Origin: a virus
Direction: 5' to 3' (one strand)
IMG/VR virus record: IMGVR_UViG_3300014827_000174
Coordinates: 1 to 52,779 of that record
Length of the DNA stretch: 52,779 nucleotides
The position numbers and the translations under genes are program-made. The notes below the pieces were generated by a model. It worked only from the letters and a program-made list of their open reading frames with translations, was not told the DNA's origin and ran no database searches. Positions 1,894-52,275 of the stretch are shown piece by piece. Each line of letters opens with the position of its first letter. The stretch's first letter is position 1.

Positions 1894-3585
1894 TCATCCT
1901 AACAACTCACGCATTTTTTCCGCGAGTATTTTTTTTCTTGCTTCATAAAATGTTTCATAGTCTTCTATTTCAAGTGAAACATCCTGCGGAATCATAGCCT
2001 GTTTACAAAATTCAGCCTTTTGCCCATCATTCATATCATTGTAATAATCAACAAGGCGCATATCATTTTTGCTCCCATTACTTCTACCTTCAAGCAGATG
2101 TAAATTAGGAAGGCGATTACGCGTTCCTCGCCATCTTCGCCAATCTTCCATAGAAACAGAAATAGGTTTGCCTTCGTTGAATCTGTTGTCGGGGTGAAGA
2201 TGGTCTTGCTCATATTTAAAGTTTCTATTTATCCAGTCAAGGTTCAAGTAGTAAAGAACTTCTCCAGCAACTCTGCTGCCTTTTTCTGTGTTAAGTACAT
2301 CTTCAATTTTTCCATCTGTGACTCTCAAATCATTCATCTGATCGAGCATTTCAATAGTAATTTCATATTCAAAGCTATTAATATTACTCTTCATCTGTTG
2401 CAGCTTACCTGTAGTACCTGATTGGAAATAAGTAAAGAATATCGCTCTAAGTAAATAAGCACGAACACCCTTAATGTTTTTATCGTAATCAGGATTATAG
2501 TAAATATAGTAGATAATCGGCAAAAGCACGTTCCAACTACTTGAAAAACGGCTTATATCGATTTTCATTTCCTTAAGTAGACTTTCTAAATTTGTCAGTG
2601 CTTTCTTGAACCCATTCCAATCGTTTTTCATATCCTCTGCTATCTTTTTGTTAATGTTTGATTTTACAACATCCCCATACAACATCAGAGCAGAACGGAT
2701 GATAAAGTCCGAACCAAATCCTTCATATGAATCAACGAGAATTTTCCCAAACTCGGTTTTTGCACTTGGCCAGTATGCCTCAAGAATTGACATCGTTATT
2801 TCGAATTTACGCAGTGCTTTACCACCACTATTAAACCTTACAAACATCTCAAGAGCATCATCTTGTTTCATGTCTGTAATTTCCGTATATCTAACCAGCT
2901 TTTCAACAAAAAGCTTTTTATACAGCTTTTGCAGTATGTTTCTAGCGTATTCCTTGCTATCTGTTGGAACATTCACGATGGCTTCTTCAATTGCTTTTTC
3001 TCTTGTGGTTTCATCTTGGAATTTCTTATCAACGATGTTTTTTACCTCAAACTGGGTCGGACTCAATTTCCCAACCTTATCACTAAACTTAATGTCGAAT
3101 TTTTTGGTGTTGTATTCTTCTTCATCGACTGATATCTTATTTTTATTCAGTTCTATTAGTAGCTTTGTTACAATCTTACTTCCATTATTTCTTCTAGCAT
3201 AATTCGGACGCAAGTATGCTTCGCCAAACAATGATAAAAACAGTGAGGTTAGCCTTTGCTGTCCATCCAATATGGCTGTATCGGTATTAGTAACGTTTAT
3301 GCTTGTCAACTCATAATTGACACTGTCAGCCTGTTTTCTGCTATCAAATGTAACATCTGATAAAAAGCTACAAAAATATGTATCCCATGTCACATTGGAG
3401 TCATCAACGTGCCAAAATAGAAATGTAGCAATAGGGTAATCCAGCAAAATGGAATCCCATAGTTTTTCAATTTGCTCCATACCCCAGACAAATTGTCTTT
3501 GAAACGCAGGCATTACATATTTTCCGTCTTTGATGCTTTGCAAAGCCTCATGTATCGTTATGCTGTTATCTATTAATCTGCTCAT
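1894..3585 (-). CDS. DUF262 / HNH (GmrSD-like) domain protein
   Basis: A 563-residue protein. The N-terminal DUF262 (ParB/Srx-fold) domain shows PAFQRQFVW near residue 27 and ILDGQQRLTSL near residue 106, the nucleotide-sensing motifs of GmrS-type proteins. Near the C-terminus, YEQDHLHP and NRLPNLHLLEGRSNGSKN resemble the DUF1524/HNH nuclease end of GmrD-type proteins. In this family the two halves make a nucleotide-dependent nuclease often active on modified phage DNA (type IV restriction, BREX-like defence). Whether this copy restricts modified DNA is inference. I chose ATG 3585 because GAGAGG lies just upstream; the TTG five codons earlier falls inside that site. A small unknown gene sits 110 bases upstream on the same strand. 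Confidence 0.8.
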   Translation of the reverse strand: MSRLIDNSITIHEALQSIKDGKYVMPAFQRQFVWGMEQIEKLWDSILLDYPIATFLFWHVDDSNVTWDTYFCSFLSDVTFDSRKQADSVNYELTSINVTNTDTAILDGQQRLTSLFLSLFGEAYLRPNYARRNNGSKIVTKLLIELNKNKISVDEEEYNTKKFDIKFSDKVGKLSPTQFEVKNIVDKKFQDETTREKAIEEAIVNVPTDSKEYARNILQKLYKKLFVEKLVRYTEITDMKQDDALEMFVRFNSGGKALRKFEITMSILEAYWPSAKTEFGKILVDSYEGFGSDFIIRSALMLYGDVVKSNINKKIAEDMKNDWNGFKKALTNLESLLKEMKIDISRFSSSWNVLLPIIYYIYYNPDYDKNIKGVRAYLLRAIFFTYFQSGTTGKLQQMKSNINSFEYEITIEMLDQMNDLRVTDGKIEDVLNTEKGSRVAGEVLYYLNLDWINRNFKYEQDHLHPDNRFNEGKPISVSMEDWRRWRGTRNRLPNLHLLEGRSNGSKNDMRLVDYYNDMNDGQKAEFCKQAMIPQDVSLEIEDYETFYEARKKILAEKMRELLG

Positions 3586-4037: not shown

Positions 4038-4290
4038 TGTTAATATTCCTTTCAATTAAACTTGGGCATAAAGCCTCGTCGTCGAAATTTTAACAGCAGA
4101 TAGCTCTACATTTACCTAAAACCAAGTCGATTTTGTCTTATTTCACCGAGTTAATCATTTATATCTTTTCTACAGTAATCTACAAGATAATTAAAAGCTT
4201 CTTCGCATCATTATCTTCTATTACAAATTCTTGTCAACTACAAGCTCTATATAATTTCTCTAAAATTCAGCAATATCCTTCCATTTCCAT

Positions 4291-4349: not shown

Positions 4350-5921
4350 TTATATTTCTATATCAATTTCAACGCAAGATTTAAACTCAATGGTCAGCTT
4401 ATCATCAAATACCGAAATCTTTTCTATGAGCCTTCTTACCAACTGCTCATCATATTCCTGTAACTCTCCTGACTGCTCCATTAGAAATTCGGTCATTTCC
4501 TCAATCCGCTGCCTTTTCCCTTGACGCTCTGCATTTTGTACAAGAGAATTTTGTTTTAGTTCCCGCAGTCGATAAATCTCATCAGCCAGGTTGTTATAAT
4601 CAGCTTTGGAGTTTGCCAACCTCAGCAGTTCATTTTGCAATTCATTCAATTTGCCATCAATATGGTCTGTACTTTTATCGTTCTCTTCATCTAATACAGT
4701 AGCTATATTATTCTGCAAAGTGGAAAGAAAAGCATCCTTGCTGCATAATATATCGTTTATAGCCTTGACCACTGCTCTTTGTAGAATCTCCTCATTTATA
4801 GTCGGAGAAGAACAATCTGAACCTTTCTCTTCAAGGCGACTTACACACCTCCAAACAATTGACTTATTACCCCTATTGTTCCAATGTATTCTTCTGTAAA
4901 TTTCACCACACTCTCCGCAATATACAATACTGGATAGCGCATATCTGCTGCTGTAGACTCGCTTCTTACCACTTTTACCTGTATGTAAATTTGCCCGACG
5001 CACCATCTCTTCCTGTACCTGCATATAAAGTTCGCGAGGAATAATTGGCTCGTGGCTGTTTTCTACATAATATTGAGGAACAATACCATTGTTAACCACT
5101 CGTTTCTTTGAAAGGAAATCGACAGTGTAGGTCTTTTGCAGCAATGCATCACCAATATACTTTTCATTTTGTAGCATTTTTTTAAGGGTTTCAGGTCTCC
5201 ATTTTGCCTTTTCGGCAGCGGTTAATATCCCATCCGCTTCCAGTCCTCGTGCTATTTGCAACAAACTTGCTCCCTCAAGGTACTCTCGGTAGATACGCTT
5301 AATTATTTCTGCCTCTTCAGGGACAATGACCAGATGCTTATTTTCATCTTTGGTGTATCCCATAAATCGATTGTGGTTTATTTGGATTTCACCTTGCTGG
5401 TAGCGGAACTGAATGCCAAGCTTTACGTTTTGGCTTAAGGACTGGCTTTCCTGCTGAGCCAATGATGCCATGATGGTTAGAAGTACTTCACCCTTAGAGT
5501 CCATGGTATTAATATTTTCCTTTTCAAAAAATACCTGGATGTTTTTATCCTTGAGTTGGCGGATATATTTTAAGCAATCCAGCGTATTCCGGGCGAACCT
5601 GCTGATTGACTTGGTAATCACCATATCAATTTTGCCTTCTAAACATTCTTCTATCATGCGGTTAAACTCATCACGCTTTTTCGTATTTGTACCGCTGATA
5701 CCATCATCCGCAAATATTCCAGCTAGGTCCCATTCAGGATTGCCCTTAATATAACTTGTGTAATGCTCAATCTGGACTTCGTAACTGGATGCCTGCTCCT
5801 CACTGTCTGTTGAAACACGGCAGTATGCAGCAACTCGCAGTTTTGGCCTTTCTTTAGAATTTGTATTATTGCCCATGCGTGAACGCGCCGGTATCACCGT
5901 AACATTTCTGTTATTAGCCAT
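4350..5921 (-). CDS. large serine recombinase (integrase), third gene of the cassette
   Basis: A 523-residue site-specific recombinase. The N-terminal resolvase domain has the catalytic serine in YCRVST (Ser37) and the conserved DDGISGT and SISRFARN segments. The recombinase DNA-binding domain follows at about 180-300, then a zinc ribbon (CGECG near 335 and a downstream Cys pair) and a coiled coil near 400-480. Large serine integrases join attP and attB without host factors and need a directionality factor for excision. Its start overlaps the end of the upstream recombinase-like gene by 8 bases, so the two are co-translated. It probably acts with the other catalytic recombinase in the operon to integrate and excise the prophage. 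Confidence 0.92.
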
Positions 5922-6339
5922 CTGTTATCACCTCGCTTTCAATTAAATTATAGGCATATTCTGCTTGCTTAAAGGGATCATCGTAAAGTTGCTGCGGTGA
6001 AGGCGTGGAAAAGTGCAGTCTTTGGATAGTTGTTTCTTGCATCTCCGCATCATGAATTCTGCCAAGAATCTTCGCCCGTCTTAATCTTTCAGTTTGTACC
6101 TTTTCAAAAGTGTCATTATCAATTATCCGAGGATAGAAGCCATCTTCAACGTATTGCTTATTTGTCAGCATCTTGGTAATGGAAGCATGATAGCGTTTGA
6201 TGCCCACCTCTTTCGCAGAGTCCGATAAAGAAAGTCCTGAAAGATAAGCATGAAACAGCTCTCTTATTTGTGCCGCCGCCCTTTCATCGATAACTGCTTT
6301 TCCGTTTTTAATGACATAACCGTATGGTGTATGCCCCAC
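5914..6339 (-). CDS. catalytic-domain-less recombinase family protein
   Basis: A 141-residue protein that begins directly in the 'recombinase' DNA-binding domain: [17 protein letters not shown], then a helical HTH-like region ending near [19 protein letters not shown]. It has no resolvase domain and no catalytic serine. The GTG start at 6339 follows the TAA of the upstream recombinase without a gap, and its end overlaps the next gene by 8 bases, so all three are translated as a unit. The tight coupling argues for a deliberate accessory DNA-binding subunit rather than a broken gene. A role in synapsis or as directionality factor is inference. Confidence 0.8.
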
Positions 6340-7911
6340 TTATCTCACCAGCCTTTCTTTAAGGGTAATTCCACATTTCATTTTGAAACCTATCTCTTCT
6401 TGTGAAAAAACAATGATTTTTTCTATGAAGCGGTCAAATAACTCTCCGTCAAAGCTTTCTATCTGATTATTAGCCTTGGATGCAAATTTCAAAAGCTGTT
6501 CCACTTTGACCACTGTGGCCATTCCACCGTTTACCGAATGAGAAAGAGCTACTTTTTGCTCTTTTAATATAGTTGCTTCCTTGCGCAGTTCATTGTTCTG
6601 CTTAATAAATAGAGCGGGGTCCAGGTACCCTTTGGTCATAAGACCCATGAGTACCTGACTGTGCTCCTTATTTTCTTCAATCTTCACTTCAAGCTCCTGC
6701 ATCTGAACAATATTGTCTGAATAGTTCACTGCCCTTAAGCTCCGCAGCAACGGTTTTAGGATAGACTTATGTCCGAAGATTAGCTTGTTTGTCATGGTTA
6801 TAAAAGCCTGATGAATGAAGTCCTCACGAATAAAGCGCATAGAGCACTCTGAAACATCATTGATATGTTTGGAACAACACCAGGCAATGTATTTGCTATC
6901 ACCACTACCATGAGTTCTGCGTTTAAAGGTGCCTCCACACTCTGAGCACTTTATCTGTCCAGAGAAAGGATAGCGGTTTTGATATTTACTGTTTCCCTTT
7001 CCTATACCTTTCTCTTTTCCATGCTGCTCTAATATCTCCGCACACGCTTCATAATCCTCATGAGTGACGATTGCTTCATGATGGTTTTGAATAAGGTATC
7101 GATCCTTTTCACCATAGTTATAATGCCTGTTAAAATGCTCATCAGTATAAGTTTTTTGCAGTATTACATCTCCTGTGTACTTCTCATTACCAAGAATGCC
7201 GCGAATAGTGGATGCTGTCCAGTGCGTTCCACGTTTTGCAGGTATGCCCTCTGCATTCAGGTTATCGGCAATCTTCTGTGTCCCTTTACCGGATAAGGCC
7301 TGGGAAAAAATTCTCCTAACAACCTCTGTTTGTTCCTTATTCACAAGCATTTGCCCGTCTGAATAATTATACCCATATGGAGGGTAAGACAGCTTGTATG
7401 TACCGTTTTGAAACCGACGCTGAATTGACCATTTATTGTTTTGAGAAATAGAAACTGATTCACTCTCCGCAAGGCTGCTCAGGATTGTCAGCATCAATTC
7501 ACTTTCCATAGACTGTGTATTGATGTTTTCCTTCTCAAAGTATATAAAAACACCGAGGCATGTCAGCCTTCGTACTATTTCCAGGCAGTCTGTTGTGTTT
7601 CTTGCAAACCTGCTGATAGACTTGGTTACAATGAAATTAATTTTCCTATTTTCACAGTCTGTCAACAGTCTTAACAGTTCTGTGCGCTTTTCTTTATGAG
7701 TGCCGGAAATCCCCTCATCATAATAAAGACCTGCAAATTCCCATCGCTGATTTGCCTTAATGTATGATTCGTAATGGTTTTTTTGTGTTTCCAGACTGAC
7801 TAATTGCTCATCACTATGTGTAGACACTCGGCAGTATGCCGCTACCCGCAGTTTTGGCTGCATAGCAGCCAATGCCCTATTTCCTGATGTTTTTGTTACC
7901 TTTCTCATCAT
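6340..7911 (-). CDS. large serine recombinase (integrase), first gene of the cassette
   Basis: A 523-residue recombinase paralogous to the gene at 4350-5921. The catalytic serine is in YCRVST (about Ser30), followed by DEGISGT and KSISRFARN. The recombinase domain (PPYGYNYSDGQ to GDVILQKTY), a zinc ribbon (CSECGG, later CC and C) and a coiled-coil segment near 410-470 complete the usual layout. The ribosome binding site GGAGGTGAAG precedes two consecutive ATGs; I give the first (7911), though 7908 is equally possible. The frame also opens at a GTG inside the binding site. Its C-terminal half differs enough from its paralogue that the two probably bind different DNA half-sites. Confidence 0.92.
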   Translation of the reverse strand: MMRKVTKTSGNRALAAMQPKLRVAAYCRVSTHSDEQLVSLETQKNHYESYIKANQRWEFAGLYYDEGISGTHKEKRTELLRLLTDCENRKINFIVTKSISRFARNTTDCLEIVRRLTCLGVFIYFEKENINTQSMESELMLTILSSLAESESVSISQNNKWSIQRRFQNGTYKLSYPPYGYNYSDGQMLVNKEQTEVVRRIFSQALSGKGTQKIADNLNAEGIPAKRGTHWTASTIRGILGNEKYTGDVILQKTYTDEHFNRHYNYGEKDRYLIQNHHEAIVTHEDYEACAEILEQHGKEKGIGKGNSKYQNRYPFSGQIKCSECGGTFKRRTHGSGDSKYIAWCCSKHINDVSECSMRFIREDFIHQAFITMTNKLIFGHKSILKPLLRSLRAVNYSDNIVQMQELEVKIEENKEHSQVLMGLMTKGYLDPALFIKQNNELRKEATILKEQKVALSHSVNGGMATVVKVEQLLKFASKANNQIESFDGELFDRFIEKIIVFSQEEIGFKMKCGITLKERLVR

Positions 7912-7960
7912 CTTCACCTCCTTCAGGTATGTGACATGTTACCTCTGAATGCCCAGTATA

Positions 7961-8808: not shown

Positions 8809-9204
8809 TCACACCATGGTGGGATCTGGAGTTGCAACGGATACAGGTGTGGCTACAACCGGGCTAATAGTAAACGGTTTAATCTTAGCAAGTTCTTGAG
8901 CTATAATTCCTTTAAACAAAGCCAATATCTCTTCCATGGGAAGGTTCTTTCCGAATCCGGTTTTGGCTATTTCTGTTTGAATAATATTGGTCACGGAATT
9001 AGCTAAATCAACCGATGGCAAAATCCCCCCCACTTGCTGCTTAGCATCGACAAAGCCCTGGCCTAAGATATAAGACGATGAGGCAATCACAAGATAGAGC
9101 ACATCTTCCGGCGGCATACCTAGTTTCAATACGAAGTTAAGCAATACGATTAAGACAATTCCAACGAACGCCCATAGTTTACGAGACTTAAGTTTTTCGG
9201 ACAC
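8809..9204 (-). CDS. holin-like phage membrane protein
   Basis: A 131-residue protein with a short basic N-terminus (SEKLKSRKLW), one clear hydrophobic helix at about 11-30 and a second at about 35-50, then a soluble Pro/Val-rich tail. This is the layout of small phage membrane proteins of the lysis cassette, and it follows the endolysin gene directly. Holins form lesions in the cytoplasmic membrane that release or activate the endolysin. I cannot name a family, so 'holin' is inferred from topology and position; the XhlA-like protein upstream is the other lysis membrane protein. A terminator lies between the endolysin and this gene, so its expression relies on readthrough. Confidence 0.55.
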   Translation of the reverse strand: MSEKLKSRKLWAFVGIVLIVLLNFVLKLGMPPEDVLYLVIASSSYILGQGFVDAKQQVGGILPSVDLANSVTNIIQTEIAKTGFGKNLPMEEILALFKGIIAQELAKIKPFTISPVVATPVSVATPDPTMV

Positions 9205-9297: not shown

Positions 9298-10344
9298 CTA
9301 AAACTTACTAAATCCACCGTTCCATGCTACATAGCCACTTTTTGTGTTAGCTCCTTTGTTAGTGGCATAAACGACATGCAATTTACCTTTCTTCCTGTAG
9401 AGTGGTGTTGCTGATTCTCTAGGATTCAAAGACCCTAAACTACCACCAATCTCATCGAGAACCGCTTCCATTGTAGAGCCATTCTGCCATTGGCTTTGGT
9501 AGATATACTGGATACAGCTAACTACATTGGCTACGTATCCACTTTTTACGCCTGTCGGTGTGGGATACTCAACTAGGCATAACTGCTTTGAACCGCTGAC
9601 ATCTAGGACAGTTATCCTATCCCCTTTGGAAACATATCTTCCTGGAATTGTATTCCCGTTTGCATCCCTAATATAAAGGTCGTCATTGATAACCTTGGCG
9701 TTGTTGGGATAAGTGTATTTTAGTGTAGCAACGGGAGGAACTGAAACAGGTACAGCGCTGGGAGCAGGACCATCTACATAAGCAATACCAAAGTAGTCAC
9801 AAATGCCTTTTGCGTGGGCTACAGCGATGGTGTCTAAGAATGGCTTTGATTTTAACTTGGAAGCATCAGAAGAAGAGTCAATAAATCCACTTTCAGTTAA
9901 AATGGCAGGCGCATTGGTATTAGGGCCCGTTACATAATCATGCGCAATCTTAACCCCTCTGTTTGCCCACTGGCCTGCATTTACAAGATAAGGGAGAACC
10001 CTTTTGGCTAAAGTTTCTGCCTTGCCACCTGTACCATAAATTAAAATTTCTTGTCCTGTTCCCCCTCCTGCATTAATATGAATTGCCACAAATATATCTG
10101 CATTGACGTTATTAGAAATATCACATTTTGCTTGTAGAGATTGAACTAATGAAAAACCAGACGATAATCCTGTTACAAGGTCCCCATCTCTTGTGAGGAC
10201 AACCTTGAATCCATTTAGTTCAAGCATGGGTTTTAGCTTTCTACAAATATAGAGTGTTAAGTCTTGCTCTAGTAACCCATTACCTTCTGCCCCTGTGTCA
10301 TGACCATATGAGTTATGCCCTGGGTCTAAAACTACAACTGGCAT
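9298..10344 (-). CDS. N-acetylmuramoyl-L-alanine amidase (endolysin)
   Basis: A 348-residue phage endolysin. The Amidase_3 domain fills about residues 1-190 with all zinc and catalytic residues in place: DPGHN (His10), Glu26, VAIHIN (His89) and the catalytic Glu151 in LTESGF. It cleaves the bond between N-acetylmuramic acid and L-alanine in peptidoglycan. After a Pro/Ala/Val linker near 195-205, the C-terminal part (about 210-280) looks like an SH3-type wall-binding domain and the last 70 residues form another small module. There is no signal peptide, so release should need the holin. The ATG overlaps the stop of the XhlA-like gene (TAATG). Confidence 0.92.
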   Translation of the reverse strand: MPVVVLDPGHNSYGHDTGAEGNGLLEQDLTLYICRKLKPMLELNGFKVVLTRDGDLVTGLSSGFSLVQSLQAKCDISNNVNADIFVAIHINAGGGTGQEILIYGTGGKAETLAKRVLPYLVNAGQWANRGVKIAHDYVTGPNTNAPAILTESGFIDSSSDASKLKSKPFLDTIAVAHAKGICDYFGIAYVDGPAPSAVPVSVPPVATLKYTYPNNAKVINDDLYIRDANGNTIPGRYVSKGDRITVLDVSGSKQLCLVEYPTPTGVKSGYVANVVSCIQYIYQSQWQNGSTMEAVLDEIGGSLGSLNPRESATPLYRKKGKLHVVYATNKGANTKSGYVAWNGGFSKF

Positions 10345-10682
10345 TACTTTATCAGTCCTTTCAAAACCATACTATAATAAAAAGTCCAGAGATTAGTTAA
10401 TGCAAAAAATACAAGAGTTACAGTTCCCGCTATAATCGCATTTTTTAGTTTGTTATACGTTTGCAAAGGTCGTTCGTTTATTTCTTTAACCTCGGTCGTT
10501 ACCTTTGCTAAATTAGTCGTAAGGATTTTTGTTGCTTCCAAAACCTTATCGACAGTGCCCTCCATTCTAATATTAGATTTCTCTATATCTACTAGACTTT
10601 TAGAGTGGCCTTTGTCATTATCCTTAAGTTCAGAACAATCATCCTCTACGTGCTTAAATCTTCGGTCAATGTCCTCTTCCAT
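10344..10682 (-). CDS. XhlA-like lysis-associated membrane protein
   Basis: A 112-residue protein: a long N-terminal coiled coil (about 1-80, heptad-rich, charged) and a single C-terminal hydrophobic segment (about 85-105) ending in KGLIK. This matches the shape of XhlA/haemolysin-type phage proteins that work with holins to release endolysin. It precedes and overlaps the amidase gene. The start ATG at 10682 has AGGAGG about 10 bases upstream. The assignment is from architecture and position. Confidence 0.75.
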   Translation of the reverse strand: MEEDIDRRFKHVEDDCSELKDNDKGHSKSLVDIEKSNIRMEGTVDKVLEATKILTTNLAKVTTEVKEINERPLQTYNKLKNAIIAGTVTLVFFALTNLWTFYYSMVLKGLIK

Positions 10683-10729: not shown

Positions 10730-10784
10730 ATACAATTTATTGTATAACCCACAAGGGTACAGGGTGCGTACTACCTTGTGGGTT
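10730..10784 (-). promoter_or_regulatory. hairpin plus operator-like inverted repeat upstream of the lysis genes
   Basis: A perfect 11-bp stem (AACCCACAAGG at 10746-10756 with CCTTGTGGGTT at 10774-10784) encloses a 17-base loop that itself holds GTAC...GTAC. It is not followed by a U-run on either strand. Right next to it, ATACAAT-TT-ATTGTAT (10730-10745) is an inverted repeat with 7-bp arms, the size of a repressor operator. Both lie between the tiny Trp-rich peptide and the XhlA-like gene, so they probably control lysis gene expression or mRNA stability. Confidence 0.5.
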
Positions 10785-10806
10785 ACCGTCCCGCAAGTGA
10801 TTTAGA

Positions 10807-10854
10807 TTACATGCCTACCACAGATACAACGGATAGCCATAACCACCACCACAT
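10807..10854 (-). CDS. 15-residue Trp-rich hydrophobic peptide with a strong ribosome binding site
   Basis: AGGAGGTGATCTT leads directly into ATG of the frame MWWWLWLSVVSVVGM, then TAA. The near-perfect Shine-Dalgarno match (AGGAGGTGATC) argues strongly for translation. Four of the first six residues are tryptophan. It lies after a terminator-like structure and before an 11-bp hairpin, the arrangement of a leader peptide in an attenuator, although the downstream hairpin lacks a U-run. It may instead be a small membrane-active lysis peptide. Confidence 0.5.
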   Translation of the reverse strand: MWWWLWLSVVSVVGM

Positions 10855-10874
10855 AAGATCACCTCCTAATAAAG

Positions 10875-10918
10875 AAGGGCAAAGAAAAAAGACTATCTCT
10901 AGTCCCTGCTTTACCCTT
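10875..10918 (-). terminator. nested hairpins ending the tail operon
   Basis: On the minus strand GACTA-GAGA-TAGTC (10891-10904, a GNRA-type tetraloop) is followed by TTTTTT (10885-10890), a compact intrinsic terminator. It sits inside the loop of an outer 10-bp stem (AAGGGTAAAG / CTTTGCCCTT; 10909-10918 with 10875-10884, one G-U pair). Separates the tail genes from the lysis genes. Confidence 0.75.
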
Positions 10919-10937: not shown

Positions 10938-11096
10938 TTACATAGCAATTTGCGCTTCGGTCATTTGAGGAGTCGTTAAAATCATGTCGCATTCTGACTG
11001 GGTAATACGAGCTGGAACTTTACTTTGAAGATAAACTTCGTCTACTTTTCTCATAATCCAAAGATTGAGAATGAACGCATAAGCTGGACTTTGCAT
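10938..11096 (-). CDS. small XkdX-like phage tail-region protein, 52 aa
   Basis: ATG 11096 behind GAGGTGGTGA starts a 52-residue frame beginning MQSPAYAFILNLWIMRKV and ending with a short helical segment (TTPQMTEAQIAM). Small proteins of this size with an N-terminal Trp/Tyr-rich stretch and a C-terminal 'TxxQ' helix are found at this place, between tail fibre and lysis genes, in many Firmicute prophages (XkdX family). The match is by size, position and pattern only. Function unknown. Confidence 0.6.
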   Translation of the reverse strand: MQSPAYAFILNLWIMRKVDEVYLQSKVPARITQSECDMILTTPQMTEAQIAM

Positions 11097-46067: not shown

Positions 46068-46521
46068 CTTGTTTAATACGCCTTTTGAGATTTCTATGCG
46101 CATTTTATTGACGCTCTTTGTTTGCAGCGGAAAAAGCAGAACAGTCGATATGATTGCTGCGGCGGATTTCTTAACTATTTACAGCCGCAATTTTGGAATC
46201 GTAGATTACAACCTTCACGGAGAGAATTCTTTTAATTTCAGCGAACTTGCTTCACGACGCAAGCTCATGAACGAGGCAATAAAGCAGTTGGTCGTTGATG
46301 GGTTGATTGCTGTTGTCTGGGGAAAACAGGGCTTTCAATATAAGCTGAATTCACCTGGTCGACAGGTATGCGATTGTTTTTCGACGGTCTATGCAGCGGA
46401 GTATATTTGGCTGGCACAGGCCGTCTATGACTTTATTGACGACAAGACGGAGCTTGAAGTAATACGCCTGATTAACAATCGAGCCACTATGACGAGGGAA
46501 AGGAGAACGGACAATGGCTAA
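46057..46521 (+). CDS. ABC-three-component middle component
   Basis: A 154-residue protein starting MMSDLFNTPFEISMRILLTLFVCSGKSRTVDMIAAADFLTIYSRNFGI, the usual opening of the 'middle component' of ABC-3C systems (DLxNTPFE-x-S-x-R-x-LLTL). It has a winged-helix-like middle (LASRRKLMNEAIKQLVVDGLIAV) and a helical end. In Lamassu terms it is LmuC, bridging effector and ATPase. The two start ATGs at 46057 and 46060 lie inside the end of the effector gene, and its end overlaps the ATPase by 8 bases, so the three are co-translated. Confidence 0.8.
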   Translation: MMSDLFNTPFEISMRILLTLFVCSGKSRTVDMIAAADFLTIYSRNFGIVDYNLHGENSFNFSELASRRKLMNEAIKQLVVDGLIAVVWGKQGFQYKLNSPGRQVCDCFSTVYAAEYIWLAQAVYDFIDDKTELEVIRLINNRATMTRERRTDNG

Positions 46522-48313
46522 CTTTTATATTCAGAAGATAACCGCGTCAGGCAACGGAAAAAATAATTCCATTGTTAAGTTCAATCCTGGCCTGAATGTT
46601 ATTTACGGACGCTCCAACACAGGAAAGACCTGCATTGTCAAGTGTATCAATTTTATATTTGGAGGTTCCGTACTTCCTTTTTCTGAAAAGACAGGATACA
46701 CCTGCGTGCAGATGGACGTCAGGACGCTAAGCGGTCATTTGATTCTGGAAAGAAAACTTGACGAGAATAAAATATCCGTTTTCAGCACTGATGAAAATAT
46801 CGAGTCCGGGAAATATAATTCAAAAAAAGGGAAAAATCTAATCAGCTCTGTATTGCTAAAGCTGATGGGAATTGAAGACGACCATCAGATTATTTCAAAT
46901 GAAAACTTTAAAACGAAGCACCTTACATGGCGTACCTTTGTGCATATGTTGATAGTTAATGAGCGCGAAATCGACAGAGAAAGCTCTATCATTCTGCCGA
47001 AAATGCCACAGCACCAAACGGCGTTTCTCTCCTCGCTGCTCTTCCTGTTATATGACAAGGACTTCTCGGGGTTTGATGAGCGTGAAAGCAAAAAGGAAAA
47101 AGCTATTCGCAAGGCCGCCGTGGAAAAATACATCAACGGCGAACTAAGTTCCTTTGCCGAACGTAAGCAAGTCGTAACGGATAACTTGAGCAGATTTGAG
47201 GAAATCAATGTTGAGCGAAAAATTGAAGAACTTGTCGATTCCCTTAGCAAGACGGAAGACCGTATTTCCGAAGCTATGACTCGAAGCAAAACGCTTTTAG
47301 AGGAAATGCTCCAAATGCAAGAAAGTCTAGCAGAGTGCAGTATGCTGTTTTCTCGTTATCAATCGCTGAAAAGCCAATATGCAGCGGACATCAAACGGCT
47401 GACATTCATTGTCGATGGCGAGGCAGCAATGCATAGTGTACCGCATGATGCGAAATGTCCGTTCTGTGACGGGAATTTGCCCTTAAAGGAGCAAGAATCC
47501 TATACAGATGCCGCCAGCGCCGAACTGAGCAGAATCGTCGCGCAGTTGGGAGGCCTGAATGAGTCTGAGCAGGATTTGGTGCAGCGCCGTGCTGACCTTG
47601 AACTGAAGATAGCCAGTCTGACCGATGAAAAATCGAATGTTGAAGCTCTGGTCAATTCGGAACTCAAGCCAAAAGCAAAAGATCTGGCCGAGTCCATCAA
47701 CGGATATCGTGACTACATTCAGTTGCAAAACGAACTGGATATCATTCATCGCCTGTCGGATGGCTGGACTACCGACTTGCGAGGTATGCAGAACGAAGAG
47801 GACTCGCAGATAAAATACAAACCGAAGGATTTCTTTGATGATAACTTTTGGAAAACAATAGATGCATATTTGCAGGAAATTTTATTTGAGTGCAACTACA
47901 CGCCATTGGTTTCGGCTCGACTCTCCAAAGAGAACTTCGATATCGAAGTAAATGGCAACAAGAAAGCCGTAAATTATGGTAAGGGATACTGCGCTTTTTT
48001 AAACACGGTGTTGACGCTTGCATTCAGGAAATATCTTGCGATGAATGCGGTATATAATCCGGGAATATTTGTGATAGATACGCCTTTGCTGGGCTTGGAC
48101 GAAGGCACACACAACGAAGCTCCAGACAGCATTCAAAGGTCTTTATTCCAGTATTTCATCGACCATCAGGTCGAGGGTCAGCTGATTGTTGTGGAAAACA
48201 TAAACACGATACCGAAATTAGACTATGCCGCTTCGGGTGCGCAAGAGATCGTCTTCACCAGAGGCCTATCAGAGGGCAGATATGGATTTCTTGACGGTGT
48301 TAAGGATCTATGA
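46514..48313 (+). CDS. ABC-three-component SMC-like ATPase
   Basis: A 599-residue SMC/Rad50-like ABC ATPase. Walker A is GRSNTGKT (residues 32-39); a long coiled coil runs from about 190 to 430 with a zinc hook at its tip (KCPFCDGNLP near 315). The C-terminal half of the ATPase head has Walker B and D-loop FVIDTPLLGLDE near 518. Rad50-type heads dimerise through the zinc hook and sense DNA ends. In Lamassu/ABC-3C systems it is LmuB, the sensor. ATG 46514 lies behind AAAGGAG and overlaps the middle component gene. Confidence 0.85.
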   Translation: MANFYIQKITASGNGKNNSIVKFNPGLNVIYGRSNTGKTCIVKCINFIFGGSVLPFSEKTGYTCVQMDVRTLSGHLILERKLDENKISVFSTDENIESGKYNSKKGKNLISSVLLKLMGIEDDHQIISNENFKTKHLTWRTFVHMLIVNEREIDRESSIILPKMPQHQTAFLSSLLFLLYDKDFSGFDERESKKEKAIRKAAVEKYINGELSSFAERKQVVTDNLSRFEEINVERKIEELVDSLSKTEDRISEAMTRSKTLLEEMLQMQESLAECSMLFSRYQSLKSQYAADIKRLTFIVDGEAAMHSVPHDAKCPFCDGNLPLKEQESYTDAASAELSRIVAQLGGLNESEQDLVQRRADLELKIASLTDEKSNVEALVNSELKPKAKDLAESINGYRDYIQLQNELDIIHRLSDGWTTDLRGMQNEEDSQIKYKPKDFFDDNFWKTIDAYLQEILFECNYTPLVSARLSKENFDIEVNGNKKAVNYGKGYCAFLNTVLTLAFRKYLAMNAVYNPGIFVIDTPLLGLDEGTHNEAPDSIQRSLFQYFIDHQVEGQLIVVENINTIPKLDYAASGAQEIVFTRGLSEGRYGFLDGVKDL

Positions 48314-48346
48314 TAACGCACACCGCACATAACAAGGAGGCAAAAA

Positions 48347-48565
48347 ATGTATATCAGTTACAATAAGCTGTGGAAATTGTTGATTGACAGGAACATGAAC
48401 AAGCAGGACTTGAAGAAAGCAACCGGCGTCAGCTCCGCCTCCATTGCCAAATTGGGTAAAGGCGAAAACATCACAACAGATGTACTGATGAAGATATGCA
48501 AAGTTCTTGATTGTGATATTGCAGATATAATGGAAATAGTAAATGATGAAGACAAAACCCAATAA
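48347..48565 (+). CDS. XRE/Cro-type HTH regulator, 72 aa
   Basis: A 72-residue single-domain HTH protein: YNKLWKLLIDRNMNKQDLKKATGVSSASIAKLGKGENITTDVLMKICKVLDCDIADIMEI. This is the small Cro/C1 type (YozG-like) commonly placed before type I restriction-modification genes. ATG 48347 is behind AAGGAGG. It may repress its own operon and pace methylase over nuclease expression. It is the only repressor-type HTH protein in the window, but its short length and location make a prophage repressor unlikely. Confidence 0.85.
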   Translation: MYISYNKLWKLLIDRNMNKQDLKKATGVSSASIAKLGKGENITTDVLMKICKVLDCDIADIMEIVNDEDKTQ

Positions 48566-48667
48566 CAGCTGAATCCGTTATAGAAATAGCCAATAGATTT
48601 AGAATTATTGTGCCGAATTAATGACAGATATATAAGAGTGCCACTTGGCACAGAAGCGAGGAACTTT

Positions 48668-51106
48668 ATGGCAGTTAAGAAAAGTGCCTTATACAGCTCT
48701 CTTTGGGCGAGCTGTGATGCATTAAGAGGCGGTATGGATGCCTCACAATACAAGGATTATATATTGACCCTCTTATTCGTGAAGTATGTTTCGGACAAGT
48801 TTAAGGGTGTTGCTTACGGCGACATCGATGTTCCAAAAGGGGGTAGTTTTGACGATATGCTTGCGCTGATTGGCAACAAGAACATCGGCGAAGAGATTGA
48901 CAAAATCATCGCCAAACTCGCCGAAGCAAACAACCTCCGAGGGGTTATTGACAACGCGCACTTCAACGACGAGGACAAACTCGGCAAGGGCAAGGAAATG
49001 GTCGACAAACTGAGTGAGTTGCTCGGCATATTCCGCGACCAAATGCCGGACTTCAGCCGCAATCGCGCCGACGGCGACGACATAATAGGCGACGCATACG
49101 AATACCTTATGCGGAACTTCGCCACCGAGAGCGGTAAGAGCAAGGGGCAATTTTACACGCCCGCCGAAGTGTCACGCATACTCGCAAAAGTCGTTGGAAT
49201 TGAGCATTCCAAAGCGGGCGAAACCACCCTGTACGATCCAGCTTGCGGCTCTGGCTCCCTATTAATCCGCGCGGCCGAAGCCGCTCCGGTCGATGTAGCC
49301 ATATACGGCCAAGAAAAAGAAGGCACCACTGCCGGTCTTGCCCGTATGAACCTTGTTCTGCATAACCGAGCGACTGCCGAAATTAAAGGGGGCTACAGCA
49401 CGTTCTCCGATCCGCAGTATAAGAATCCTAACGATGATGGGGCATTGCGTCAGTTTGACTTTGCAGTGGTTAATCCTCCGTTTTCCGATAAGAATTGGAC
49501 GCACGGCTTGAAAGAATACGGACGTTTTGATGGCTACGGCGACCGCCCACCCCAGAGGAGCGGTGATTTCGCTTGGCTGCTCCATATTATTAAGTCGCTT
49601 AAGCGCAACGGCAAGGCGGCGGTGATACTTCCCCACGGCGTACTCTTTCGCGGTAACGCCGAGGCGACCATACGGCAATCGCTTATAGCCAAAGGCTATA
49701 TTAAAGGCATCATAGGCTTACCCACGAACCTGTTTTACGGGACTAGTATAGCTACCTGCATTATCGTCATCGACAAAGAGAACGCCGACGAGCGGGACGG
49801 CATTTTTATGATTGACGCGAGCCGCGACTTCATCAAGGACGGCAACAAGAACCGTTTGCGCGAGCGCGATGTTTATAAAATCGTTACAACTTTCAACGAG
49901 CAGATCATAACTGATTCAAAATACGCCCGCTTTGTGCTGGATGACGAGATAAAAAACAAAAACGCCTACAACCTTAACTTAACGCGTTACATAAACGGCG
50001 GCGCGGCTGAGGATTTGCAGAGCATTGACGGTCACTTAAACGGCGGCATACCGAGCGCAGATGTTGACAGCCTGTTGCTCTATTGGGATACGTTCCCGAA
50101 CCTGCAATCTGCGTTGTTCAAGCCGATCCGCGATGGGTTTTATTCGCTCGCCGTGGACAAAGATGCTATTCGTGACACCATTTATGGCGACTCAGACTTT
50201 TCCGCATACGCCGATAAGGTAGAGAAAGCCTTTGAGAGTTGGAAAGCCTGCGTTGACAGCAAACTCTGCGGCATAGATAGCAAGACAAAACCCAAGTTGC
50301 TGATTACAGAGATTGCCGAGCAAATCTTGGGGGAATACGAGCCTGTCACGCTTGTGGATAAATACGATGCCTATGAGGTGTTGCTGTCCTACTGGAACAA
50401 CGTAATGGCCGATGATGTTTATATGCTTGTTCAGGATGGTTACAAAGCCGTCCGCGATATTGAGGTATTCACCAAGACGACCACCAAAAAGAAAAAAGAC
50501 AATACGGAAGAAACAAAAACGACAGAAACGGGCTGGGACGGCAAACTTGTGCCGAAAGCCCTTGTTATAGAGATGTTCTTCTCTGCGGAGCAAAAAGTGA
50601 TAGACGACACCGAAATAATCATCGTGTCGGTGCAAGCCGAACTAGACGACTTGATAGAGAACGCCGAAGACGATTCTGTCATTAACGACGTGCTTAAAGA
50701 CAACGGCAATCTTGATAAGCCGGGACTTAAGAAAAAACATAAAGATAAGACGCTCGACGCAGATGACTGGAAAGTGTTGCAGACCCTGTCCAAATTAGTC
50801 GTTAGGGTTGATGAGGGTACGAAGACGCTAAAAGATCTCCGCGCCGCCCTAGACAAGAAAACCCGAGAGCAGTATGTCAAACTCACCGACGAGCAGTGTG
50901 TGGAACTGCTCCTTGAACGCAAGTGGTATCGCTCGCTTGTGAGCGGCGTATATGCACTGTATATGGCGGTGAGCCATCGCATTGCTGAGCGGGTGACGGA
51001 ACTCGCCGAACGCTATGAGCGGACGATACCGGAGCTTGAAACCGAAGTCACCGAACTTGAAAGCAAGGTGAAATTCCATCTGGAAAGGATGGGTTTTGTA
51101 TGGTGA
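48668..51106 (+). CDS. hsdM: type I restriction-modification methyltransferase subunit (HsdM)
   Basis: An 812-residue type I modification subunit. The HsdM N-terminal helical domain (SLWASCDALRGGMDASQYKDYILTLLFVKYVSDKF) is followed by the adenine methyltransferase domain: SAM motif DPACGSGSL near residue 188 and catalytic NPPF near 269. Unlike standard HsdM of about 500 residues, it has some 300 additional C-terminal residues with Lys/Glu-rich coiled coils (EVFTKTTTKKKKDNTEETKTTE, LETEVTELESKVKFHLERMG). ATG 48668 (GAGGAA upstream) is preferred to an earlier ATG at 48608. It overlaps hsdS by 7 bases. The gene methylates and thus protects host DNA at the site read by HsdS. Confidence 0.92.
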   Translation: MAVKKSALYSSLWASCDALRGGMDASQYKDYILTLLFVKYVSDKFKGVAYGDIDVPKGGSFDDMLALIGNKNIGEEIDKIIAKLAEANNLRGVIDNAHFNDEDKLGKGKEMVDKLSELLGIFRDQMPDFSRNRADGDDIIGDAYEYLMRNFATESGKSKGQFYTPAEVSRILAKVVGIEHSKAGETTLYDPACGSGSLLIRAAEAAPVDVAIYGQEKEGTTAGLARMNLVLHNRATAEIKGGYSTFSDPQYKNPNDDGALRQFDFAVVNPPFSDKNWTHGLKEYGRFDGYGDRPPQRSGDFAWLLHIIKSLKRNGKAAVILPHGVLFRGNAEATIRQSLIAKGYIKGIIGLPTNLFYGTSIATCIIVIDKENADERDGIFMIDASRDFIKDGNKNRLRERDVYKIVTTFNEQIITDSKYARFVLDDEIKNKNAYNLNLTRYINGGAAEDLQSIDGHLNGGIPSADVDSLLLYWDTFPNLQSALFKPIRDGFYSLAVDKDAIRDTIYGDSDFSAYADKVEKAFESWKACVDSKLCGIDSKTKPKLLITEIAEQILGEYEPVTLVDKYDAYEVLLSYWNNVMADDVYMLVQDGYKAVRDIEVFTKTTTKKKKDNTEETKTTETGWDGKLVPKALVIEMFFSAEQKVIDDTEIIIVSVQAELDDLIENAEDDSVINDVLKDNGNLDKPGLKKKHKDKTLDADDWKVLQTLSKLVVRVDEGTKTLKDLRAALDKKTREQYVKLTDEQCVELLLERKWYRSLVSGVYALYMAVSHRIAERVTELAERYERTIPELETEVTELESKVKFHLERMGFVW

Positions 51107-52275
51107 ACTGCTGGAGTATTCAAAAGTTATCAGACCTTTCAAACATGAAAAGTGGGTTGGGCATAACAGAGGAAAATATCGAAAAATCTGGGAATTATCC
51201 TTGTTATGGCGGTAATGGGTTGCGTGGCTTTACGTCCGAATATACTCATGATGGGCAATTTGCACTTATTGGTCGTCAGGGTGCGCTTTGCGGCAATGTT
51301 GCATTAGTTTCAGGGAGATTCTTTGCTTCTGAGCATGCTGTTGTTGTCACTCCCAAGTCAAACACGGATATAGTATTTCTGTCCTACGTCTTGATAGATA
51401 TGAGATTAAATCAATATTCTGAGTCATCGGCTCAACCCGGATTGTCAGTTAAAAAAGTTCTTGAAATCGAGTACTATGCTCCCAATGACAATTCTGAACA
51501 ACGCGCCATCGCCGCCGCGTTGTCGGATTCAGACGCATACATCACCGCGCTCGAAAAGCTGATTGCCAAGAAACGCACCGTGAAGCAAGGTGCAATGCAG
51601 GAACTGCTCACGGGCAAGCGTCGCTTGCCGGGATTTAGTGGTGTGTGGGACACTTTGAAACTTGCGGCAAACTCAACACTAAAAGCAAGAATCGGTTGGC
51701 AAGGCCTGACAACAGCAGAGTATCTTGATGAAGGATATTCTTACCTTATCACTGGCACAGATTTCTCAAATGGCAAGATAGCGTGGAGCGGTTGCCATTA
51801 TGTAGACAAAAGTCGCTATGACCAAGACACGAATATTCAAGCGGGCAACGGTGACGTTCTGATAACAAAAGACGGAACTATTGGCAAGGTCGCTATCGTA
51901 AACGGCTTGACAAAAAAAGCAACGCTTAATAGTGGTGTCTTTGTAGTCCGTCCGAAAAACGAAGCGTATGAAAGGACATACATCTATTATGTCTTGCTTT
52001 CGCAAATCTTCGCCGATTTCCTTGCTAAACTGTTGGCGGGTTCTACAATTAACCACTTATATCAAAAGGACTTTGTAAACTTCGAGTTTAAAGCCCCGGT
52101 CGCAATCGCCGAACAAACCGCCATTGCCGCCGTTCTCTCCGATATGGACGCGGAGATTGACGCGCTGATACAAAAGCTCGAAAAGGCGAAGTGCATAAAG
52201 CAAGGTATGATGAGCGAACTACTGATGGGCAGAATACGATTGATACAGGAGGACACGGACAATGGCGAAAATTAA
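51100..52275 (+). CDS. hsdS: type I restriction-modification specificity subunit (HsdS)
   Basis: A 391-residue HsdS with two target recognition domains. TRD1 is about 10-130 (YGGNGLRGFTSEYTHDGQFALIGRQGALCGNV), the first conserved helix EQRAIAAALSDSDAYITALEKLIAKKRTVKQGAMQELLTGK about 135-175, TRD2 about 190-320 (YSYLITGTDFSNGKIAWSG), and the second helix EQTAIAAVLSDMDAEIDALIQKLEKAKCIKQGMMSELL about 335-375. Each TRD reads one half of a bipartite DNA site. The two helices are near-identical in plan, as needed for symmetric assembly with two HsdM. The gene overlaps hsdM and the start of hsdR. Confidence 0.94.
   Translation: MVNCWSIQKLSDLSNMKSGLGITEENIEKSGNYPCYGGNGLRGFTSEYTHDGQFALIGRQGALCGNVALVSGRFFASEHAVVVTPKSNTDIVFLSYVLIDMRLNQYSESSAQPGLSVKKVLEIEYYAPNDNSEQRAIAAALSDSDAYITALEKLIAKKRTVKQGAMQELLTGKRRLPGFSGVWDTLKLAANSTLKARIGWQGLTTAEYLDEGYSYLITGTDFSNGKIAWSGCHYVDKSRYDQDTNIQAGNGDVLITKDGTIGKVAIVNGLTKKATLNSGVFVVRPKNEAYERTYIYYVLLSQIFADFLAKLLAGSTINHLYQKDFVNFEFKAPVAIAEQTAIAAVLSDMDAEIDALIQKLEKAKCIKQGMMSELLMGRIRLIQEDTDNGEN

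Follow-up and report, generated by a model that had tools for sequence, protein, structure and literature searches.

The DNA analyzed here (the window) is a virus record of 52,779 nucleotides whose late genes lie on the minus strand. Read 5' to 3', the tail fiber gene is followed by a gene for a 79-aa protein and by an XkdX-like gene, after which come a nested hairpin, a micro-ORF, an 11-bp hairpin, an inverted repeat, and the genes encoding an XhlA-like protein, an amidase, and a holin (Table 1). Geobacillus and Paenibacillus phages have relatives of the XkdX-like gene at the corresponding position. The PHROG 937 match of the XhlA-like protein, whose hydrophobic segment comprises residues 83–101, is weak; the holin and amidase genes are adjacent, and Pfam gave no XhlA match for this protein or for the XhlA-like types of the relatives described below. 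No sigma-70 promoter was found between the tail hairpin and the micro-ORF, which makes read-through the probable route of transcription into the lysis genes. An Rfam scan of the window gave no match, comparison of the region's DNA with annotated phages found no similarity, and tblastn searches of phages and plasmids with XhlA-like proteins returned no credible relative. Elsewhere in the window, three adjacent serine-recombinase-like frames (523, 141, and 525 aa) occupy positions 4350–7917; the 523-aa frame resembles CcrB/XisF recombinases, and the 141-aa frame is apparently a fragment. The edge of the record (46514–52275, plus strand) carries a type I restriction-modification-like cluster, in which a frame for an SMC-like ATPase precedes an HsdM-like gene (832 aa) and an HsdS-like gene (391 aa).

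Table 1. Features of the tail/lysis border in the window, and micro-ORFs of the related loci.
Feature	Genome	Positions	Strand	Remarks
Tail fiber	window	13938–11380	-	followed by the gene for the 79-aa protein
XkdX-like gene, 52 aa	window	10938–11096	-	closes the tail module; name assigned from its position; unmatched in Pfam
Nested hairpin	window	10875–10918	-	GNRA loop, internal T-run; terminal element of the tail module; L192 and L198 have conserved copies
Extended Shine-Dalgarno sequence of the micro-ORF, AGGAGGTGATC	window	10857–10867	-	fully complementary to the 16S 3' end
Micro-ORF, 15 codons, MWWWLWLSVVSVVGM	window	10807–10854 (ATG 10854, TAA 10807)	-	ORF with relatives in L062, L067, L197, and L279
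11-bp hairpin	window	10746–10784	-	between the micro-ORF and the XhlA-like gene; no U-tract
Inverted repeat ATACAATAAATTGTAT	window	10730–10745		single copy in the window
XhlA-like lysis-cassette protein, 112 aa	window	10344–10682	-	PHROG 937 hemolysin, E = 4.3e-5; C-terminal hydrophobic segment
N-acetylmuramoyl-L-alanine amidase (endolysin)	window	9298–10344	-	Pfam Amidase_3, E = 2.9e-35
Holin	window	8809–9204	-	PHROG 9987 holin, E = 2.3e-8
Micro-ORF, MWWWFWSMLVNL	L062 (also L018)			from scan requiring SD and MWWW
Micro-ORF, MWWWWFFDTQ	L067			from scan requiring SD and MWWW
Micro-ORF, MFWFWWFVSMASF	L197			locus found by holin similarity
Micro-ORF, MFWFYWFYSMVIL	L279 (also L280)			locus found by XhlA similarity

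A preliminary description of this DNA had placed a 48-base gene with a nearly perfect Shine-Dalgarno (SD) sequence upstream of the lysis genes, and the gene is present at that place on the minus strand. Seven bases separate AGGAGG from its ATG, and the duplex of its SD sequence with the 16S 3' end amounts to -20.5 kcal/mol, compared to -11.7 kcal/mol for the next gene. With both strands of the window considered, the micro-ORF is the only short SD-led ORF with four or more aromatic residues at positions 2–6. Such ORFs occurred at a mean of 0.08 in 50 shuffled windows, and shuffling the 255-base gap of the window produced one in 14 of 10,000 cases. The shuffle rate of the window is by itself suggestive only, and it is the relatives that decide.

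At least four further phage lineages from IMG/VR carry an SD-led ORF of 10–13 codons directly upstream of an XhlA-like gene, which in these lineages is a lysis gene of the coiled-coil and C-terminal membrane type. L062 and L067 were ascertained for sequence (an SD sequence and MWWW), but not for position beside lysis genes; L197 and L279 were picked up through neighboring proteins, without use of the micro-ORF. With the window included, the SD-led frame thus recurs at one place in the diverged genomes of five lineages, and its position beside XhlA-like genes in the relatives bears out both the proposed tie to the lysis genes and the reading as a real tiny gene. Conserved copies in related phages had been suggested as a check on both peptide and hairpins; the peptide is conserved in the relatives, and the hairpins are not retained as a conserved unit. 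A chance ORF behind a fortuitous SD sequence would agree with the short length and with the lack of annotation in the collections examined, but we regard it as the least probable explanation of all, as such frames arose in only 1–14 of 10,000 shuffles for each of the five gaps (5 of 10,000 each for L197 and L279) and two of the frames were found without reference to the ORF. Judged from these comparisons, the micro-ORF is very probably a real, conserved coding gene.

The gene order in L279 (amidase, micro-ORF, XhlA-like gene, holin) indicates that the micro-ORF is consistently linked to the XhlA-like gene rather than to the tail end. The XhlA-like proteins themselves fall into three types with approximately 20% identity among them, a level at which homology between the types is not established. 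None of the six loci with other lysis modules (L192, L195, L198, L199, L200, and L201) has the micro-ORF. Beyond the named loci, scans with the MWWW and MFWF ORF patterns gave in-frame coding or unrelated ORFs among the matches listed and inspected, the MWWW pattern applied to 299 genomes of one Bacillota group gave no such micro-ORF among the matches listed, and profile searches of bacterial genomes for XhlA, XkdX, and holin gave no further member. The family may nevertheless be larger than five lineages.

Aromatic residues occupy nearly every one of positions 2–6 in all five peptides, and the codons at these positions vary, with TGG replaced by TTT, TTC, or TAT, such that Trp, Phe, and Tyr interchange. 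In the one pair compared in this way, L197 and L279, the ORF is 77% identical and the flanks are 49–52% identical; the differences include TTT/TTC and TGG/TAT, and the aromatic residues are kept. These exchanges through different codons point to selection on an aromatic peptide rather than on Trp codons. The peptides are conserved at the N-terminus but differ in length and at the C-terminus. Wimley-White interface free energies of the five peptides range from -7.9 to -10.1 kcal/mol, the window peptide ranking second by this measure among 751 ORFs of 10–15 aa, and the net charge is 0 or -1 in every case. In each of the five loci, the micro-ORF has a more stable SD/16S duplex than xhlA; the difference is large or clear in the window, L067, L062, and L197 and small in L279 (-12.3 versus -10.7 kcal/mol). 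If the ORF served to load ribosomes or as a spacer, a strong SD sequence and short translation would matter and the residues would not. This would account for the SD difference, but it leaves unexplained both the aromatic residues at nearly every position from 2 to 6 and their interchange, and we consider it improbable.

The nested hairpin upstream of the micro-ORF, which carries a GAGA tetraloop and has its T-run inside the outer stem, had been described as a terminator. The hairpin is present; the terminator assignment was not reproduced, as a simple terminator scan did not call it (0 found), which we attribute to an inner stem with few G-C pairs. It is also absent from Rfam at the gathering threshold. 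Comparison with the close relative L192 places it outside the lysis module: L192 is 93% identical to the window at the DNA level across the tail genes as far as position 10867, where the micro-ORF SD sequence begins, and the identity returns inside the C-terminal part of the amidase (window position 9711, minus strand). Between these boundaries, L192 has a different lysis module that lacks the micro-ORF. These sharp boundaries indicate that the amidase catalytic domain was exchanged together with the lysis genes upstream of it, in a single piece. Copies of the nested hairpin are found at 4170–4230 in L192 and at 3299–3356 in L198, neither of which has the micro-ORF, indicating that the hairpin ends the tail module, that the micro-ORF starts the lysis module, and that the two are separate units. 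On this sequence comparison, the hairpin is an element separate from the micro-ORF unit and a candidate terminator or RNA-processing element. In Paenibacillus phage Pd_22F (L195), a GC-rich hairpin (3136–3212) likewise separates the lysis genes from the XkdX-like gene; such hairpins may thus be widespread at the border of tail and lysis modules.

Downstream of the micro-ORF, the previously noted 11-bp hairpin was confirmed, with a perfect stem formed by AACCCACAAGG and CCTTGTGGGTT at 10784–10774 and 10756–10746. The 263-base region folds better than its shuffles (z = -3.27). The inverted repeat that had been called operator-like is likewise present, but its reading as an operator was rejected because the window contains no second close copy.

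The main proposal of the preliminary description was that these elements form a leader peptide and attenuator sensing charged tRNA-Trp. Four Trp codons among codons 2–6 of the window ORF would suit such a design, as would the hairpin with a T-run that follows the micro-ORF in L067, the only one of the five loci to have a U-tract after that hairpin. Two features expected of an attenuator are nonetheless not shared across the loci. A conserved series of codons for the amino acid being sensed is lacking, as the Trp count falls to three in L197 and two in L279, with Phe or Tyr instead, and a U-tract terminator downstream of the leader ORF fails as a shared element, given that the window hairpin has no U-tract and L062 has no hairpin. 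As part of the tail module, the hairpin on the upstream side stays when the lysis module is swapped. The Trp codons also come too early, as a ribosome stalled at codons 2–6 would still cover the start site. Pairing of the micro-ORF with downstream sequence (-21.9 kcal/mol) is weaker than the downstream fold (-40.0 kcal/mol) in the window, and some cross-pairing is possible in L279. With Phe/Tyr replacements, unshared hairpins, and early codons all against it, classical attenuation is highly improbable, and the micro-ORF is probably a real, unstudied lysis-cassette component and not a Trp sensor.

A more serious rival, ranking next after a lysis role in trans although in our estimate still unlikely, is that the ORF is a leader acting in cis: its translation, or a pause caused by the aromatic nascent chain, would determine how well the xhlA mRNA is translated or how stable it is, thereby delaying the lysis proteins, and the released peptide would be idle. 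The tiny size, the fixed place upstream of one gene, and the very strong SD sequence are as expected of such a leader. A hairpin separates the micro-ORF from xhlA in four of the five loci, and in L062, the exception, the micro-ORF stop abuts the xhlA SD sequence 12 bases before the xhlA ATG, as for reinitiation. However, no RNA switch is shared, the hairpins differing in sequence and place; the spacing to xhlA ranges from 12 to 124 bases; and in the window the downstream hairpin is predicted to remain the stable form. Known arrest peptides depend on C-terminal residues, whereas here it is the N-terminus that is conserved.

We favor instead an action of the micropeptide in trans in the lysis step, to which we assign a probability of roughly 0.45. 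Relative to attenuation, this reading is preferred for the aromatic, membrane-seeking character of the peptides, the Phe/Tyr exchanges, the position of the run early in the ORF, and the fact that no terminator is shared, and a role in lysis is preferred because five distinct lineages have the micro-ORF in one place. From the frame, its SD sequence, its repeated position, and its aromatic conservation, we infer translation in vivo, membrane binding, and an action on XhlA or the holin. A strongly translated micro-ORF of 10–15 codons would travel with one group of XhlA-like lysis genes, and its peptide would be made in quantity just before or together with the XhlA-like protein. Immediately upon synthesis, the uncharged aromatic product would associate with the membrane interface, and it would serve the adjacent XhlA-like membrane protein and the holin as a small partner or timer. 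A tiny membrane lysis peptide had been offered earlier as an alternative and fits better than an attenuator, but at 10–15 residues the peptides fall short of a transmembrane segment (approximately 18 or more residues) and cannot span a bilayer; they would therefore have to act at the interface or through a partner protein. Against a lysis role in trans, it can be said that the lineages number five (at least), two of them found with a pattern requiring MWWW, that the fixed place upstream of one gene fits a role in cis as well, and that the three XhlA-like types share approximately 20% identity and have no Pfam XhlA call. More tentatively, some cassettes may possess an extra component, an uncharged aromatic interface peptide of 10–15 residues that sets the trigger time of the XhlA-like protein and holin.

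As most gene callers and protein databases skip genes this short, a recurrent lysis gene of 10–15 codons would be missed everywhere. If the peptide acts on the membrane or on XhlA/holin, it would represent a very small new element in the control of phage lysis timing, and an interface peptide of this kind would be among the smallest functional lysis proteins known. A cis-acting leader, if the ORF is one, would also be unusual, in that selection would have favored aromatic residues as a class and not a single amino acid.

A Trp-rich micro-ORF in a lysis cassette was not found described in the literature searched, which covered few subscription papers; studies of small phage genes may list such ORFs as unnamed families. 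Among known systems, amino-acid attenuator leaders (trpL, pheL, and the actinobacterial trp leaders with Trp runs) consist of an SD-led ORF of approximately 15 codons with a run of one residue class, followed by a hairpin. The window micro-ORF is similarly SD-led and of about this length, with a residue run and a hairpin after it, but its residues interchange among Trp, Phe, and Tyr, the run is at codons 2–6, the neighbors are lysis rather than biosynthesis genes, and there is no conserved terminator/antiterminator. Ribosome-mediated attenuation by a small upstream ORF is described for bmrCD of B. subtilis, which resembles the micro-ORF in placing such an ORF near RNA hairpins (PMC4191407). 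Compared with the portion of the bmrCD account available, the micro-ORF loci differ in having no conserved C-terminal arrest residues or shared terminator. Trp-rich antimicrobial peptides are typically cationic, whereas the micropeptides are neutral or carry a charge of -1 and have no export signal. The likeness to that group, as far as the accessible part of a review covers it, is in being short, Trp-rich, and likely to bind the membrane interface (PMC6017362). In PBSX of Bacillus subtilis, the membrane protein XhlA is predicted to function together with the holin XhlB, and xhlA, xhlB, and xlyA are all needed for the production of membrane vesicles, in agreement with an earlier report on lysis, according to the sections of the study available (PMC5589764). 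The window differs in that its XhlA-like protein matches PHROG 937 weakly and no Pfam XhlA model, and no comparable micro-ORF was seen in those sections of the PBSX description; the likeness is in the cassette itself, as xhlA-xhlB-xlyA, like the window, sets a small XhlA-type membrane protein beside an amidase and a holin (PMC5589764).
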